A stretch of DNA of 27,610 bases from a virus. The position numbers and the translations under genes are program-made. The stretch spans positions 1-27,610 of the IMG/VR virus record IMGVR_UViG_3300032087_003092, one strand, 5' to 3'. Each line of letters starts with the position of its first letter. Position 1 is the first letter of the stretch. The notes below the pieces were generated by a model. That model had not been told where the DNA came from. It saw only the letters and a program-made list of their open reading frames with translations, and did no database searches. Of this stretch, positions 3,055 through 20,932 are shown piece after piece.

Positions 3055-3456
3055 TCATCCGTCTATGACGACTTCCTTTTTCGGGGGCAGCAACACAACG
3101 CCGTGAACAGCTTGAACGTTGTGGTTGATTGTCTCCTGTTTCGCCAAACCAACACGATTGAGAAGGGATTCCGCTGCGCGGAAACGAAGATCGTCCCCTC
3201 GTTCCGGAACATGGTTGTCAATCGTGCCAATTACCCTGTTCGCAGCCTTCAAGGCATTAGCTGCCAACAGATGTTTCGTCCGTTCGATGATTTCATCGGA
3301 CAACGTATCCTTCAGCCACGTCACAGAGCCGCGTGAGTAGCCCGCATCTAGGGCTGCTTGCGTCACATTACCCCCGTTTTCAAACAACAGGTCTAGGAAA
3401 GACTGTTGCTGGGTCGTGAGTTCGCGCTTCTTGTGCTGTTGTGGCAACAAATTCAT
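3055..3456 (-). CDS. terS: Probable terminase small subunit
   Basis: A 133-residue protein. Residues about 12-45 (LTTQQQSFLDLLFENGG followed by TQAALDAGYS) form the helix-turn-helix typical of phage small terminase subunits, which recognise phage DNA and load it onto the large subunit. The middle (AANALKAANRVIGTIDNHV, and AAESLLNRVGL) is helical and could form the oligomer interface. The length is in the usual range for the family. It stands two genes before the large subunit, on the same strand. The start follows the stop of the preceding small gene closely, suggesting translational coupling, and no strong Shine-Dalgarno sequence is visible. A search against small-terminase profiles would settle it. 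Confidence 0.8.
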   Translation of the reverse strand: MNLLPQQHKKRELTTQQQSFLDLLFENGGNVTQAALDAGYSRGSVTWLKDTLSDEIIERTKHLLAANALKAANRVIGTIDNHVPERGDDLRFRAAESLLNRVGLAKQETINHNVQAVHGVVLLPPKKEVVIDG

Positions 3457-3461
3457 GGTAT

Positions 3462-3665
3462 CTATACTTTAATCTTGTCCCCATCCACGTAGCAGATGGA
3501 ATCTAGGGCAACATGGTTGGGATATGCCCGGGGAATGTCCCGAATCATTTCCTCGATACGGGCCTCACAGTCCTTTTCCCGTAGATAGGGGCCTCGTGCG
3601 TCCTGAATTATAGCACACGGGGCCATATAGGGTAGCATACAGGCCAAAACAACTGCTTCAAACAT
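3462..3665 (-). CDS. Small hypothetical protein with a hydrophobic N-terminus
   Basis: A 67-residue protein starting MFEAVVLACMLPYMAPCAI. The hydrophobic N-terminus, followed by Cys, could be a signal anchor or lipoprotein-like leader, and the rest is soluble (REKDCEARIEEMIRD). The frame is open up to 3770, but the only start there is TTG with no ribosome site. ATG 3665 has an AGGG about 9 nt upstream, so I prefer it. The leftward promoter at 3783-3811 would give a leader of about 110 nt. Two Cys in the body (CEARI and SICYVD) could form a disulfide if exported. Function unknown. Confidence 0.65.
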   Translation of the reverse strand: MFEAVVLACMLPYMAPCAIIQDARGPYLREKDCEARIEEMIRDIPRAYPNHVALDSICYVDGDKIKV

Positions 3666-3782
3666 GATATTGGCCCTAGTATGGTGGAAAGGAGAGGCTG
3701 ACCAGCCTGACGAACATCCCTTTTTCATAGAATCGGGGTTTGTGCGTGGATGTGTGCTGGTTTGGTGCAACCCCTCATTGTT

Positions 3783-3811
3783 ATTTTAGGTCTCGTGCAA
3801 CCCATTGTCAA
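3783..3811 (-). promoter_or_regulatory. Leftward sigma70-type promoter
   Basis: Read on the minus strand: TTGACA (3811-3806), a 17-bp spacer, then TAAAAT (3788-3783). That is a perfect -35 and a 5/6 match at -10. It points at the packaging genes that start at 3665. The -35 sits inside a perfect inverted repeat, CATTGT at 3803-3808 and ACAATG at 3815-3820, which could be an operator. Confidence 0.75.
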
Positions 3812-3863
3812 GCAACAATGTAGGGGAAAACCCCCAATATACCAAAAAAAATAATCCGGGGGG

Positions 3864-3884
3864 GCCTTTTCTGGGGAAAAAGGC
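3864..3884. repeat. Perfect 7-bp inverted repeat between the divergent promoters
   Basis: GCCTTTT (3864-3870), a 7-nt loop, and AAAAGGC (3878-3884). It lies between the leftward promoter at 3783-3811 and the rightward one at 3907-3935. Read leftward it could be a weak terminator, although the T-rich stretch begins about 11 nt after the stem. It could equally be an operator. Confidence 0.5.
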
Positions 3885-3906
3885 TAAAAAAGTGACCCGG
3901 GGGGGG

Positions 3907-3935
3907 TTGACAAAACCGGATCAGACCCATACAAT
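3907..3935 (+). promoter_or_regulatory. Rightward sigma70 promoter of the small RNA
   Basis: TTGACA (3907-3912), a 17-bp spacer, then TACAAT (3930-3935): perfect -35, 5/6 at -10, ideal spacing. Transcription would start near 3942. There is no convincing protein gene downstream on this strand, but a strong intrinsic terminator follows about 50 bp later, so the promoter seems to serve a short RNA. Confidence 0.8.
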
Positions 3936-3941
3936 GGCTTC

Positions 3942-4029
3942 AGAGCCTCCCGGGTAAATATATACTACACCCACCCGGGCCTATATAAGGGATACCCTAG
4001 CGTAGTTGCTGGGGTGTCCCTTTTCTTTT
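3942..4029 (+). ncRNA. Candidate phage small RNA, about 88 nt
   Basis: Bounded by a near-consensus promoter (3907-3935) and an intrinsic terminator (3989-4029). The predicted RNA has a first hairpin with a 7-bp perfect stem (CCCGGGT 3949-3955 with ACCCGGG 3973-3979) and an A/U-rich 17-nt loop. A short linker and the terminator hairpin ending in UUUUCUUUU follow. No reading frame of useful length with a ribosome site lies inside. It is transcribed against the neighbouring genes. The pyrimidine 3' tail can pair with the A/G-rich leaders of minus-strand genes nearby, most extensively with the one before 5228, so regulation of those mRNAs is a hypothesis. Expression has not been shown. Confidence 0.65.
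3989..4029 (+). terminator. Intrinsic terminator of the small RNA
   Basis: GGGATACCC (3989-3997) pairs with GGGTGTCCC (4012-4020) over 9 bp with one G-U. It is followed directly by TTTTCTTTT (4021-4029). Confidence 0.85.
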
Positions 4030-4415
4030 GGGGGCTACCTATAGGTTACCCTTAAGGTGTTGCCGGGAAAACCATACAGGTAACCCAATTCCCAACAAAA
4101 TATGTCGACATTGCATAGACATTATACCGGACCCCCCGTGGCCCATGCGGGCGGGCGTGATGCAACATTTTTATCTTTCCCCATCGGTGATGCCCAAGGG
4201 CAAGCCCCGCCCCCTATCTTCCCGGCAACCCCGCCGGGATGCCCCGCCGGGCTAATCATGGCGCACACACATATGCGCGTATGCTGATTTGTCATGCAGG
4301 AAACAGGGGGGATGGCCGGGAATCCCTGTGGGTATAAACAGCCATTCAGGACAGCCCCGCCCGGGAAAAGCCCCGCCTATTCAGAGAGATACCTATTAAT
4401 CTGCCCCCCGCATAG
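4030..4415. other. Non-coding GC-rich region with hairpins
   Basis: No convincing gene here: the short open frames have no ribosome sites and are full of Pro, Arg and Gly from G/C runs. It holds a perfect hairpin TCCCGGC (4220-4226) / GCCGGGA (4233-4239), a smaller GCGCA/TGCGC hairpin around 4261-4278, and repeats of AGCCCCGCC. A lone leftward TATAAT (4126-4121) has no matching -35. Possible roles are replication origin, packaging signal or regulatory RNA; the sequence does not choose between them. Confidence 0.5.
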
Positions 4416-4428
4416 AAAAAGCCCCGCC
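4203..4428. repeat. Cluster of AGCCCCGCC repeats
   Basis: Four exact copies of the 9-mer at 4203-4211, 4353-4361, 4369-4377 and 4420-4428, plus a one-base variant (TGCCCCGCC) at 4240-4248. The last copy forms one arm of the minus-strand terminator at 4416-4447. Copies have irregular spacing, so they are not classical iterons. They may be remnants of repeated terminator arms. Confidence 0.55.
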
Positions 4429-4447
4429 GGGACTAGCCAAGCGGGGC
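4416..4447 (-). terminator. Intrinsic terminator of the leftward small-gene block
   Basis: On the minus strand GCCCCGC (4447-4441) pairs with GCGGGGC (4427-4421), with a 13-nt loop, followed by TTTTT (4420-4416). It lies about 60 bp after the stop of the gene at 4509-4730. Confidence 0.8.
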
Positions 4448-4508
4448 CAAGTTTGGGACGGGACAAGGGGGAGGAAAAACCTTGCCCCGGCCCAGTTGCT
4501 GGGGATCC

Positions 4509-4796: not shown

Positions 4797-5228
4797 TCAT
4801 GCCGCCTTATCTTTGACGATACGGAAAATCTTTTGATATCCCTTGCCGGATCTGGCATTGGCCACCCGCCGGGATTCTATTTCAATCCCCAAGCACCGGA
4901 TATCGGTCATCAGCACATGGACATATTGGCGGGATATATTCAGCCGCCCGGCAATGGTTGCGGGGGCAGACCAGTTGCCATTGGCCAAAATATCATAGAC
5001 CTGTTGTCGGCGGGGAGATAGCTTCCGGGCAGGTTTTTCCGGCCCGTAAGCATCCCTCACGATTTGTTCCCAGTGTTTTAAATGATCTTCCCATATGCCG
5101 ATCCAAAATCGGCCTTGTTCATGGTCACCCATGCTATGCGCGATTCTGACCTGTTCCTCACAATCCCGACAGGCTTGACTGTGCAGACCTATGATTGCTT
5201 TTACTTGTTCTTTGGTATAGTTGTTCAT
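4797..5228 (-). CDS. Winged-helix-like DNA-binding protein
   Basis: A 143-residue protein. The C-terminal half (LSPRRQQVYDILANGNW, then ATIAGRLNISRQYVHVLMTDIR) is a helix-turn-helix followed by a basic wing (ESRRVANARSGKG), as in winged-helix regulators. The N-terminal half is helical, with a Cys pair (CRDC) and many His, Glu and Trp residues. I chose ATG 5228 over the in-frame ATG 5246 because a strong A/G-rich ribosome site (AAAGGAAAAGGAACC) lies directly before 5228. The protein probably regulates phage or host genes. Specificity cannot be read from the sequence. Confidence 0.8.
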   Translation of the reverse strand: MNNYTKEQVKAIIGLHSQACRDCEEQVRIAHSMGDHEQGRFWIGIWEDHLKHWEQIVRDAYGPEKPARKLSPRRQQVYDILANGNWSAPATIAGRLNISRQYVHVLMTDIRCLGIEIESRRVANARSGKGYQKIFRIVKDKAA

Positions 5229-5247
5229 GGTTCCTTTTCCTTTCATG

Positions 5248-7499: not shown

Positions 7500-7847
7500 T
7501 TGTCTTGTCTCCGGTTTGTCAGGTAGTTTGTCTTGTCAGTATTTGACAACAGAGTATCGCCGCCCCTCTTGGTGTAGGCGGGCTTGGTATCGGTGCATCT
7601 GTGGCTTGGCCCGTGTCCCCCGGCGTTCCATCATGGGGATCCACTTCTTGGCGTGGCGTATCCCTGCCTTTAGTTCCCTGTCGCTGTAGTGTGGCAGGGT
7701 TTGTCTTATCTTGCCGAAAGTATCCCGGCCATCCCGGACTGCCCCGATTATCTCTGTGGCCACTTTGTCTTTGTATGCCCCGGTCAAGCGTGGCTTGTTT
7801 GTCTCCGGTTCAATCCATGCGTGGCTTGGTTTGTCAGGCTGTTTGTC
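7476..7847. repeat. Cluster of TTTGTC (GACAAA) repeats
   Basis: TTTGTC begins at 7476, 7492, 7499, 7515, 7527, 7700, 7764, 7798, 7830 and 7842. Three are part of an 11-mer TTTGTCTTGTC at 7476, 7499 and 7527. A 12-mer TTGTCTCCGGTT occurs at 7505 and 7799. The cluster spans the start of the zinc-ribbon gene, the gap, and the next gene, so it is not explained by one protein repeat. Confidence 0.6.
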
Positions 7848-7922
7848 AGGGACAACACAGTCAGGATGTCCCCGCAACAGGAAGGTCGGGATAGGTGGCA
7901 GGTCGTCAGAATTTTGCAACAT
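7536..7922 (-). CDS. Hypothetical basic protein
   Basis: A 128-residue protein starting MLQNSDDLPPIPTFLLRG. ATG 7922 is chosen because it has a GAGAAG just upstream and overlaps the preceding gene by only 17 nt; the frame runs back to 8003 without a good site. The second half (KVATEIIGAVRDGRDTFGKI, then DRELKAGIRHAKKW) looks like a helix-turn-helix-type fold. The C-terminus is strongly basic, which suggests DNA or RNA binding. No family recognised. Confidence 0.7.
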   Translation of the reverse strand: MLQNSDDLPPIPTFLLRGHPDCVVPDKQPDKPSHAWIEPETNKPRLTGAYKDKVATEIIGAVRDGRDTFGKIRQTLPHYSDRELKAGIRHAKKWIPMMERRGTRAKPQMHRYQARLHQEGRRYSVVKY

Positions 7923-8094
7923 ACTTCTCGCCCCGGTCGCGTTGTTCGCGTAGTTCCTTGTATTCTTCCCAGAGGTGGGTGGCATCTTTGCCATCCCACT
8001 CAAGGTCGGTTATCTGCTTCATCAAGTTGACCATTGACCGTTCTATCGGCTCGTATAGTTCGGACAGGTCGCGGCTTGGTATCAGGCTACTCAT
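7906..8094 (-). CDS. Small hypothetical protein
   Basis: A 62-residue, charged, mostly helical protein (MSSLIPSRDLSELYEP...). The end (LWEEYKELREQRDRGEKYVAKF) is probably a coiled coil. ATG 8094 overlaps the end of the preceding gene by 8 nt and has GGAGACGACC just before it. No family recognised. Confidence 0.7.
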   Translation of the reverse strand: MSSLIPSRDLSELYEPIERSMVNLMKQITDLEWDGKDATHLWEEYKELREQRDRGEKYVAKF

Positions 8095-17330: not shown

Positions 17331-17602
17331 TGGATGTCCATCTAAGTCACGAAGAATATATGCGGGAGAAAGAAAAGCTGTTTGGCAAAGACATGGTGAA
17401 CAGTCCCCCGCACTACAATCAGGCAGGTATCGAGTGCATAGATGCTATCGGTGCTGCTACAGAAGAAGGCTTTGAATACTACCTTCAAGGCAACATCATA
17501 AAATACCTCTGGCGGTATCGCTACAAGAATGGCGCAGAAGATCTGAAGAAAGCCCAGTGGTATTTGAACAAACTAATCGAGGTAAAGGAAACACTAACAT
17601 GA
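17330..17602 (+). CDS. DUF3310 (SaV-like) protein
   Basis: A 90-residue protein with the DUF3310 signature: VNSPPHY near residue 25, then IECIDAI, and LQGNIIKYLWRYRYKNGAEDLKKA with a final helix. The family is common in phages next to nucleotide and replication genes; its function is unknown. The start is in a TAATG overlap with the MazG-like gene, and the stop forms ATGA with the ribonucleotide reductase start, so the three are translated as a chain. Confidence 0.85.
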   Translation: MDVHLSHEEYMREKEKLFGKDMVNSPPHYNQAGIECIDAIGAATEEGFEYYLQGNIIKYLWRYRYKNGAEDLKKAQWYLNKLIEVKETLT

Positions 17603-19524
17603 GCAATACACTACCAACCCCCTATCAGCAGTTCATCCACAAGTCCCGATACGCCCGGTGGATCGAGGAAGAAAATCGGCGTGAAGATTGGCACGAGACT
17701 GTTGACCGCTATGTGGACTACATGGCAAATCACGCAGAAGAGAAGCATGGCTACAAGCTGAAGGCAAGTGAGAAGGCAGATATCAACGAAGCCATCTTGG
17801 GCCTACAGGTTATGCCATCCATGCGGGCTGTGATGACCGCTGGCAAGGCTCTTTCCCGGGATAACATCTGCGGGTATAACTGTTCTTATATTCCGGTGGA
17901 TAGCCCTCGTGCGTTTGACGAGTGCATGTATATCCTGATGTGTGGCACAGGGGTTGGGTTCTCCGTTGAACGGGAGAATGTGGACAAGCTGCCTACCGTC
18001 AGTGATGCCATGAATAATTCAACGACTGTGATCAAGGTAGGTGATAGCAAGCCGGGCTGGGCCAAAGCCTATCGTGAGTTGATTGCCCTGCTCTATGCGG
18101 GACAAGTTCCTCAGTGGGATATGTCCGATGTGCGTCCAGCAGGGGAACGCCTGAAGGTCATGGGTGGCCGGGCATCCGGGCCGCAGCCGTTGGTTGACCT
18201 GTTCAGCTTCACCGTGGAAACCTTCAAGCGGGCAGCAGGTCGCAAGCTGTATCCCATCGAGTGTCACGACCTGATGTGCAAGGTGGGTGAGATTGTCGTT
18301 GTTGGAGGTGTCCGCAGGTCAGCCCTGATTTCGTTGTCCAACCTGAATGATGACCAGATGCGCCACGCAAAGGCCGGACAGTGGTGGGAGAACGAAGGGC
18401 AGCGGGCGTTGGCCAACAACTCCGTAGCCTACAAGTCCCGCCCAGAGATGGGAACCTTCATGCGTGAGTGGCTTGCCCTGTATGATTCCAAGTCAGGGGA
18501 ACGCGGTATCTTCAACCGGGAAGCGGCAGACAAGCAGGTAGCCCGGAATGGTCGCCGGGAAACCGGACACATGTGGGGAACCAACCCCTGTTCGGAAATC
18601 ATCCTTCGTCCCTACCAGTTTTGCAACCTGTCAGAGGTTGTGGTGCGGGCAAGCGACACCCTCGAAGATTTGACACGGAAAGTTAAATATGCAACCATCT
18701 TGGGGACGCTGCAGTCCACCCTGACGGATTTCAAATACCTTCGTAACATCTGGAAGAAGAACACAGAAGAGGAACGGCTTCTGGGCGTATCCCTGACAGG
18801 CATCATGGATCATCCGGTCTTGTCCAAGACTACGGACTCTGTGCGCTGGTTGACTACGATGCGGGAGACTGCTGTTGCCACCAACAAGGAATGGGCAAAG
18901 AAGCTGGGCATTAATGTGTCCGCAGCCATAACCTGTGTGAAGCCATCTGGAACCGTATCACAGTTGACGGACTCTGCTTCCGGCATCCATGCCCGTCACA
19001 ATGATTACTACATCCGCACTGTGCGGGGTGACAACAAGGATCCCCTGACACAGTTTCTTATCGAACAGGGTGTCCACAATGAACGAGACGTGATGAAGCC
19101 AGATAGCACCACAGTGTTCTCGTTCCCGATGAAGTCACCGGAAGGGGCTATCACCCGGACACAGATGACTGCCATTGAGCAGCTTGAGTTGTGGCTTACT
19201 TACCAGCGTCACTGGTGTGAACACAAACCATCAGTCACTATCTCTGTCAAAGAGAATGAGTGGATGGAAGTAGGTTCATGGGTCTACGAACATTTTGATG
19301 AGGTATCTGGTATCAGCTTCCTGCCATTCAGTGAGCATACATATCAGCAAGCACCTTATCAGGACATTGATGCTGACACATACAAAGAGTGGAAAGCAAA
19401 GATGCCTAAGAATGTAGACTGGACTAAGTTGCAAGACTTTGAGAAGGAAGACACTACATCAGGTGGACGTGAGTTGGCTTGTACTGCAGGCGTCTGTGAA
19501 ATTGTTGACATCGCGGCTGCGTAG
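17599..19524 (+). CDS. nrdJ: Class II (adenosylcobalamin-dependent) ribonucleotide reductase, monomeric type
   Basis: A 641-residue enzyme that reduces ribonucleotides to deoxyribonucleotides using vitamin B12 coenzyme, so it needs no oxygen or small subunit. The thiyl-radical site NPCSEI has C331, with C342 (FCNL) eleven residues later, the same spacing as C408 and C419 in the Lactobacillus leichmannii enzyme. C95 (NCSYIP) is the other active-site Cys. CVKPSGTVSQL and SGIHARH are typical. The C-terminal swinging tail ELACTAGVCE has C628 and C633 (CX4C), which hand electrons from thioredoxin to the active site. ATG 17599 overlaps the previous stop. A near-copy of the last 40 residues is a separate gene at 20006. 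Confidence 0.95.
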   Translation: MSNTLPTPYQQFIHKSRYARWIEEENRREDWHETVDRYVDYMANHAEEKHGYKLKASEKADINEAILGLQVMPSMRAVMTAGKALSRDNICGYNCSYIPVDSPRAFDECMYILMCGTGVGFSVERENVDKLPTVSDAMNNSTTVIKVGDSKPGWAKAYRELIALLYAGQVPQWDMSDVRPAGERLKVMGGRASGPQPLVDLFSFTVETFKRAAGRKLYPIECHDLMCKVGEIVVVGGVRRSALISLSNLNDDQMRHAKAGQWWENEGQRALANNSVAYKSRPEMGTFMREWLALYDSKSGERGIFNREAADKQVARNGRRETGHMWGTNPCSEIILRPYQFCNLSEVVVRASDTLEDLTRKVKYATILGTLQSTLTDFKYLRNIWKKNTEEERLLGVSLTGIMDHPVLSKTTDSVRWLTTMRETAVATNKEWAKKLGINVSAAITCVKPSGTVSQLTDSASGIHARHNDYYIRTVRGDNKDPLTQFLIEQGVHNERDVMKPDSTTVFSFPMKSPEGAITRTQMTAIEQLELWLTYQRHWCEHKPSVTISVKENEWMEVGSWVYEHFDEVSGISFLPFSEHTYQQAPYQDIDADTYKEWKAKMPKNVDWTKLQDFEKEDTTSGGRELACTAGVCEIVDIAAA

Positions 19525-19955: not shown

Positions 19956-19975
19956 TTTAATTTGTGTGGTATAAT
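19948..19975 (+). promoter_or_regulatory. Extended -10 promoter of the stand-alone RNR tail gene
   Basis: TTGATT (19948-19953), a 16-bp spacer, and TATAAT (19970-19975) preceded by TG one base upstream (extended -10, TGGTATAAT). Start is expected near 19982, giving a leader of about 24 nt that contains AAGGGAG. A consensus -10 inside this packed operon is unusual. Confidence 0.75.
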
Positions 19976-20005
19976 GGCACTAATAGTACCGAAAGGGAGT
20001 ATGTA

Positions 20006-20128
20006 ATGGCAGGAATGATTGACTGGGATAAGCTGACTGACTTTGAGAAGGAAGACAACACAACAGGATCTCGTGAACTTGCTTGCACAGCAGGGGTCTG
20101 TGAGGTTGTGGATCTGTCGGCAGCATGA
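20006..20128 (+). CDS. Stand-alone copy of the RNR C-terminal redox tail, 40 residues
   Basis: The product begins MAGMIDWDKLTDFEKEDN and continues through RELACTAGVCE to a stop. It aligns without gaps, Met to stop, with the last 40 residues of the RNR (19402-19524): 28 of 40 identical, including all of RELACTAGVCE with C27 and C32. Of the last 35 codon pairs, 15 are identical, 12 synonymous and 8 replaced, so it is not a fresh duplication. GGGAG lies 6 nt before ATG 20006, and an upstream ATG-TAA directly abuts it. In class II RNR this tail re-reduces the active site; a free tail might act in trans, compete for thioredoxin, or be a displaced old 3' end. Confidence 0.8.
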   Translation: MAGMIDWDKLTDFEKEDNTTGSRELACTAGVCEVVDLSAA

Positions 20129-20253: not shown

Positions 20254-20784
20254 ATGCAGGAAGTTACGTGCAACACTTGTGGGAAAGCACTAGATGAATA
20301 CAACTGGTCAGATAGTTGGAAAAAAGCTGCTCGTCATCAGTGCAAGTCGTGTTCAAAAGAATACAATGACAAGTCCAACAAGAACCGCATGTATATAAAC
20401 GGTAAGTATATACCTCAAACACACCCCCTCTATAAACCCGGTAATTACAAGTCCCTTGACGATGCGTGGTCACACACAGAGATTGAGAAGACAACGGACG
20501 GGGAAGTCTATCTGGTTATCAACCCGGCGTGGCCTGATTGGGTAAAGCTGGGCAAGGCAGCAATAGCAACAGACCGTCTATCTGGCTACCAGACAGGATC
20601 TCCCTATAGGGACTATATACTTCTTTGCAGCGTATATGTTGATAACAGGCACGAAACAGAGAAAGAACTGTTGACTACATTCAAGAAACATGCTACAGAA
20701 TATAAAGGAGAGTGGTTTAAAATGTCTCATGGTGAGGCGATTGATCTACTCGAATCACGTTCCCATGACGGTGGGATCGCATAG
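20254..20784 (+). CDS. GIY-YIG family protein (T5orf172-like) with N-terminal zinc finger
   Basis: A 176-residue protein. An N-terminal CxxC...CxxC finger (C6, C9, C30, C33) is followed by a T5orf172/MUG113-type GIY-YIG domain: VYLV at 85-88, VKLG at 97-100, R108 in RLSGYQTGSP, E136 in the later helix, and GEWF at 152-155. Such proteins are candidate free-standing homing or DNA-nicking endonucleases, although many T5orf172 proteins have no proven role. AGGG lies 7 nt before ATG 20254. A structured non-coding stretch follows, and 14-bp direct repeats bracket the cassette, which fits a mobile insertion near RNR. Confidence 0.85.
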   Translation: MQEVTCNTCGKALDEYNWSDSWKKAARHQCKSCSKEYNDKSNKNRMYINGKYIPQTHPLYKPGNYKSLDDAWSHTEIEKTTDGEVYLVINPAWPDWVKLGKAAIATDRLSGYQTGSPYRDYILLCSVYVDNRHETEKELLTTFKKHATEYKGEWFKMSHGEAIDLLESRSHDGGIA

Positions 20785-20932
20785 TGGCTGAATAACCCCT
20801 TGTGACGGGGGTAAGGTATACACGGGGAGTGGTTCTCCTGCTCAACCAGCAAACGTGTAGTTCGGGCGAAGTATTAGAGATAGTTACTAGCCTGATGTGG
20901 GTATTAGTCAAATCCCACCTATGCACTTTATA
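20785..20932 (+). ncRNA. Candidate structured RNA after the GIY-YIG gene
   Basis: About 150 nt without a gene inside an otherwise gapless operon. Hairpins: ACCCC (20795-20799)/GGGGT (20808-20812); an outer stem ACACG/CGTGT around 20820-20858 enclosing TGGTT/AACCA; and GTGGG/CCCAC around 20897-20918. The order of nested stems next to a GIY-YIG gene recalls the P2 to P5 part of group I introns, but I could not place a convincing P3/P7 core, and no split exon is evident. It may be an intron remnant or a different RNA. Confidence 0.4.

Follow-up and report, generated by a model that had tools for sequence, protein, structure and literature searches.

Positions 3907–4029 of the 27.6-kb virus record under study (hereafter the window, meaning the whole stretch of DNA analysed) form, judged by sequence, a real and conserved noncoding transcription unit within a larger array of cis-regulatory sites. 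The unit is terminated, and the short cores repeated in and around it may be read as duplex DNA, controlling transcription in a stoperator-like manner, a tentative reading to which we give a probability of roughly 0.45.

Genomic setting and architecture of the unit

The window derives from an HMO-2011-type marine phage, its TerL being 58% identical to that of Roseobacter phage CRP-2 and 55% identical to that of HMO-2011. Phages of this type are a dominant and broadly distributed marine viral group, and their hallmark is a family-A DNA polymerase together with a partial DnaJ central domain containing two CXXCXGXG motifs (PMC9038755). The family-A polymerase of the window matches DNA_pol_A at 2e-53, and its DnaJ_CXXCXGXG match is weak (16.9 bits, under the curated cut-off of 32.3). 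As a sign of lysogeny, integrase (PF00589) was matched no more than weakly, by 2 of the 12 records, and had no match in the window. The unit sits in a 738-nt gap (3771–4508), with the leftward terminase operon on one side and leftward early genes on the other. The features of this region are as follows.

3055–3456, minus strand: terminase small subunit (TerS), landmark of the neighbouring operon
3783–3811, minus strand: strong divergent promoter TTGACA-N17-TAAAAT, facing the terminase genes, present in relatives too and overlooked by the initial annotation
3907–3935, plus strand: sigma70-type promoter TTGACA-N17-TACAAT, with TTGACA-N17-TAnnnT at the syntenic place in relatives
3942–4029, plus strand: predicted noncoding RNA (fold z −4.3), its start taken from the −10 spacing and its end within the U-tract
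3949–3979, plus strand: 5′ hairpin of 7 bp with a 17-nt loop, CCCGGGU/ACCCGGG (3949–3955 with 3973–3979)
3987–4029, plus strand: intrinsic terminator with a 16-bp stem, a 4-nt loop and a TTCTTTT tail
4005–4013, plus strand: core copy 1, inside the terminator hairpin
4059–4067, plus strand: core copy 2, downstream of the terminator
4086–4165, no strand assigned: block B, conserved and noncoding, downstream of the RNA, 90% identical in the nearest relative (locus L211) and recognisable in nearly all relatives
4221–4229, minus strand: core copy 3, a reversed copy found in other lineages too, at +267 to +370
4420–4434, minus strand: weak terminator-like site for the leftward early genes
4495–4503, plus strand: core copy 4, immediately beyond the stop codon of the leftward 73-aa gene
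4797–5246, minus strand: 149-aa winged-HTH protein, a divergent homologue of which adjoins the element in almost every lineage

The −35 element TTGACA (3907–3912) is followed by a 17-nt spacer and by the −10 element TACAAT (3930–3935), giving 11 of 12 consensus matches; the exact pattern occurs once in the window, and 2 of 100 shuffled windows have one. Transcription would start at about 3942, an A lying 7 nt past the −10 element, as estimated from the −10 spacing, and the predicted RNA would be about 80–88 nt long. The segment 3942–4029 folds with −40.1 kcal/mol (z = −4.3), and none of 200 shuffles was equally stable. The promoter, the 7-bp hairpin and the stretch of about 88 nt without a gene that the initial annotation had described are all present on the plus strand, no ORF of at least 50 aa being contained in 3907–4029; its terminator is likewise present, with a stem of 16 pairs (3987–4002 with 4007–4022, then TTCTTTT) instead of the 9 bp given. 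A 50-aa ORF (3805–3957, plus strand) and a 75-aa ORF (4028–4255, plus strand), both without supporting evidence, merely overlap the ends of the unit. In the 12 records, window included, no consensus-like promoter apart from the element's own has a strong terminator in the roughly 165 nt that follow it. For the unit, Rfam 15 at both thresholds yielded chance-level sub-threshold matches only, the best scoring 27.7 bits against a gathering score of 50, and a distant blastn search of 3600–4400 against 50,697 phage records returned 0 matches.

Elsewhere in the window, a manA RNA (RF01745) lies at 20761–20928 on the plus strand, between a 176-aa ORF and the next ORF, and scores 63.1 bits, above the gathering score. 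In addition, a 54-aa ORF (19964–20128, plus strand) repeats the C-terminal tail of the upstream ribonucleotide reductase (17557–19524), as is seen from FEKEDNTTGSRELACTAGVCEVVDLSAA and FEKEDTTSGGRELACTAGVCEIVDIAAA.

Conservation across relatives

Relatives were gathered by a terminase homology search, which gave 80 loci, and conservation was counted among those whose sequence runs for at least 1.7 kb upstream of the match to terminase. Absence of the promoter from relatives would have told against the initial annotation, a check that its proposal passes: TTGACA-N17-TAnnnT, oriented opposite to the terminase, is kept at the syntenic place in 39 of 39 such relatives, some of which are near-identical. 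Sites of this pattern are otherwise rare in these genomes, at about 3–4 per genome, one of them inside the terminase coding sequence; a pattern scan gave many further elements. An alignment of 28 elements has TTGACA without any change and the 5′ box CCCGCCGGG unchanged in parts, the window's own box being a deviating one. An intrinsic terminator is found at +40 to +215 in 20 of 41 distinct elements, with 0.9 expected, and the terminators of different lineages occupy the same place with unrelated (non-homologous) sequences. For the elements having no recognisable terminator, about half, further search gave only scattered candidates. No comparable promoter was found beside the terminase in the isolates CRP-2, HMO-2011 and CRP-13, and no copy of the terminase protein was found in GTDB genomes.

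The box CCCGCCGGGGGTAAACCC is also observed after TTGACA-N17-TAnnnT and before apparent protein-coding starts in further phage contigs (L111, L124, L134, L143, L145, L147, L149 and L167), and is perhaps a general leader element. In phages that are near-identical elsewhere, the centre of block B (..TTGATGTCGACATTGCATACAGGTACTGGTACCCCCCGGTGGCCC..) is occupied by one or another of several alternative sequences, and the block may serve recombination, packaging or replication.

Around the locus the nearest relative, L211, shares 89% identity with the window, and it was the only one found when more members of the window's own lineage were searched for. From the −10 element to the U-tract (3929–4024), 96 of 96 nt are identical; over 3936–4022 the identity is 87/87, with flanks at 80–91% and a varying spacer between −35 and −10. 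Both stems are unchanged in this sole close relative. Identical tracts are also present at 7533–7775 (243 nt) and 7839–7965 (127 nt), inside an otherwise 86% identical region, and such long tracts suggest recent exchange in this pair, so the 96-nt identity alone is no proof of selection. The stronger point is that the limits of the identity coincide with the −10 element and the U-tract of the unit. The winged-HTH protein (4797–5246, minus strand) is just 34% identical between the window and L211, the DNA around it being 89% identical.

The promoter in 39/39 relatives, the terminators in 20/41 elements and the −10-to-U-tract identity in L211 support the earlier proposal of a full, selected noncoding transcription unit in the control region. 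The small RNA of that proposal survives as a noncoding unit; action in trans is no more than possible, as the repeats behave more like duplex-DNA sites than like antisense seeds, and half of the relatives are without a recognisable terminator.

Lineage-specific cores and how they may be read

The transcribed segment of the relatives holds 1–3 copies of a lineage-specific core of 8–9 nt, repeats that the initial annotation had overlooked, the cores including GTACGTTTT, GTATGTTT, CACTGTTTT, GTCGGTTT, GTTGCAAA, GGTCATGC and GTTCGCGG, among others. In an unbiased 9-mer count the core ranks first in genomes G001, G009 and G002 and second in G007, and does not stand out in G003, G004, G010 and G011. 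The core of the window, GTTGC[CT]GGG, is present in 9 copies with 0.87 expected, and in L211 in 7 copies with 0.30 expected. The classes have a common layout: the RNA carries plus-strand copies, a copy in reverse orientation follows at about +270 to +370, and the counterpart of copy 4 is a plus-strand copy at about +500 to +630 with leftward terminators nearby. Genome-wide, core sites occupy intergenic, start-codon, terminator and coding positions on both strands. Some families (classes N and -) lack a dispersed core altogether, a point against the duplex-DNA reading. In G018 (L214–L216) and other class D records, AAACCAAC, which differs from the class-D core by one base, occurs 21 times against 0.3 expected. 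It is possible, if rather doubtful, that the cores amount to a regulatory code with a new layout, in which the core of each lineage, densest in the RNA unit and spread genome-wide, switches as a set, its reader being a fast-evolving regulator or the RNA itself. A sense-oriented lineage core also immediately precedes the TerS start codon in L185, L018, L061, L016 and L065, which represent several core classes.

The sequence itself shows a conserved unit and a set of repeats that are enriched across the genome without orientation bias. Relative to mRNA, both orientations are enriched about equally, class A having 56 copies against 3.2 expected in one and 19 against 1.1 in the other, and class B 21 against 4.2 and 25 against 2.8. 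The enrichment in both orientations holds relative to other lineages too, and flanking identity to the RNA copies is equal for both. An intrinsic terminator is no more than 25 nt away for 25 of 191 own-class cores, some eight of which are a single syntenic site, compared with 0 of 82 other-class cores and 4.5% of random positions. Duplex DNA sites, stoperator-like and without orientation bias, fit better than antisense seeds.

We infer transcription, a binding protein and a regulatory effect in the following form. Host RNA polymerase would read the sigma70 unit at 3907–4029 into a terminated noncoding RNA of about 80–88 nt; the control region that contains it has divergent promoters and separates the terminase operon from the leftward early genes. 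The core copies would be recognised as duplex DNA by a DNA-binding factor of the phage or the host, and its binding would switch or block the noncoding unit and the neighbouring operons during infection, as stoperators do. Two candidates for this factor were rejected: the neighbouring winged-HTH protein, since one HTH type is found beside several cores and one core beside several HTH types, and TerS, since its recognition region is nearly unchanged across core classes. A proteome comparison of 22-kb fragments found no protein shared by the two class-B lineages that follows the core class, and these negatives count against the duplex-DNA reading.

An alternative that we consider unlikely is that the RNA is a trans-acting antisense small RNA, the repeats serving as seeds that repress phage mRNAs by pairing with their ribosome-binding sites and 3′ ends. 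The predicted RNA is discrete and terminated, as such a role would have it, and class-matched complements are found between the Shine-Dalgarno sequence and the start codon at 20 starts (some of them orthologous) against 0.37 expected, in four core classes. These include orthologues of the GP88-like, DUF932, MazG-like, RNR and primase genes; the core at the orf102 orthologue is of class B in L205 and of class D in L065, and in L185 three different genes have AAACATAC[C/T]ATG at the start. A start-codon sequence from one class A lineage is gaggaAAACATACcATG. In several classes, moreover, the copy that follows the first early gene matches the RNA copies beyond the core. All start-codon copies are antisense-oriented, though A-rich spacers alone would favour that orientation. 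Own-class sites fall at start codons in 10.5% of cases, compared with 3.0% for other 8-mers starting with AAAC. The start-codon placement of the cores is thus real, and would be expected equally of a DNA site located at gene junctions. Antisense seeds would call for antisense copies only; however, sense copies are enriched as much, complementarity to the RNA has no extra extension beyond the core, and wobble variants are not preferred. The class-D variant described above, enriched 21 against 0.3, is unable to pair with the RNA, and the repeats in the RNA show no clear excess of loop exposure over controls. At k = 9, a permutation test free of seeds was not significant (p = 0.10), and RNAduplex, applied to the window RNA and the window start sites, made no start-codon target stand out. 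A trans-acting role of the RNA is possible on these data.

It is improbable that the locus is a replication origin or a cos/pac site, with the repeats as iterons or TerS sites, the transcript as a primer or by-product, and block B as a nicking or opening site. The locus does lie beside terS, and in it 2–3 direct repeats are followed first by an A-rich stretch and then by the conserved block B. However, the cores are scattered across the whole genome, the TerS recognition region is nearly identical in phages with different cores, and in about half of the elements a terminator stands between the promoter and block B. Least probable of all is a functionless RNA, made from a spurious promoter or as an ordinary 5′ leader, with the strong terminator insulating convergent/divergent operons from each other, for although the 5′ box CCCGCCGGG is also found behind protein-gene promoters in other marine phages, the 96-nt identity with L211 is bounded exactly by the −10 element and the U-tract, the promoter is kept in 39/39 relatives, and consensus promoters are otherwise rare in these genomes.

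Relation to known systems and significance

The stoperators of Cluster A mycobacteriophages (L5, Bxb1) are short, asymmetric, dispersed sites, many of them away from promoters, with a lineage-dependent consensus; they are 13 bp long and lie predominantly in one orientation relative to transcription (PMC6550527). The cores described here resemble them as lineage-specific sites dispersed over a phage genome. They differ in having 8–9 bp and both orientations enriched alike, in that their densest cluster lies inside a noncoding transcription unit, and in that a candidate repressor was not found. Phage small RNAs such as c4, STnc6030 and CfrI of cyanophage S-PM2 are short, some having their own promoters and some being antisense to genes of the phage (reviewed in PMC12197685). 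No sequence relation between them and the predicted RNA was found, and repeats dispersed over the genome go unmentioned in the passages of that review considered here. The best sub-threshold Rfam match, ctRNA_p42d (RF00489, the antisense RNA of repABC plasmids; 27.7 bits), shares a GC-rich terminator-like hairpin with the window RNA; however, it is below the gathering score of 50, the hairpin shape alone matches, and there is no repABC context.

In the main paper on HMO-2011-type phages the words 'promoter', 'sRNA' and 'noncoding' are absent from the text (PMC9038755), in agreement with the remark of the initial annotation that small RNA loci are rarely described in this group. Nothing is said there about transcription control in these phages (PMC9038755), and the present locus points to a control locus not described before. 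As it consists of a promoter, a predicted RNA and a per-lineage core with predicted sites, expression and binding are directly testable. If the dispersed cores are regulator sites, stoperator-like control would extend beyond the actinobacterial phages; if they are RNA targets, the unit would encode a phage small RNA with a multi-gene regulon.
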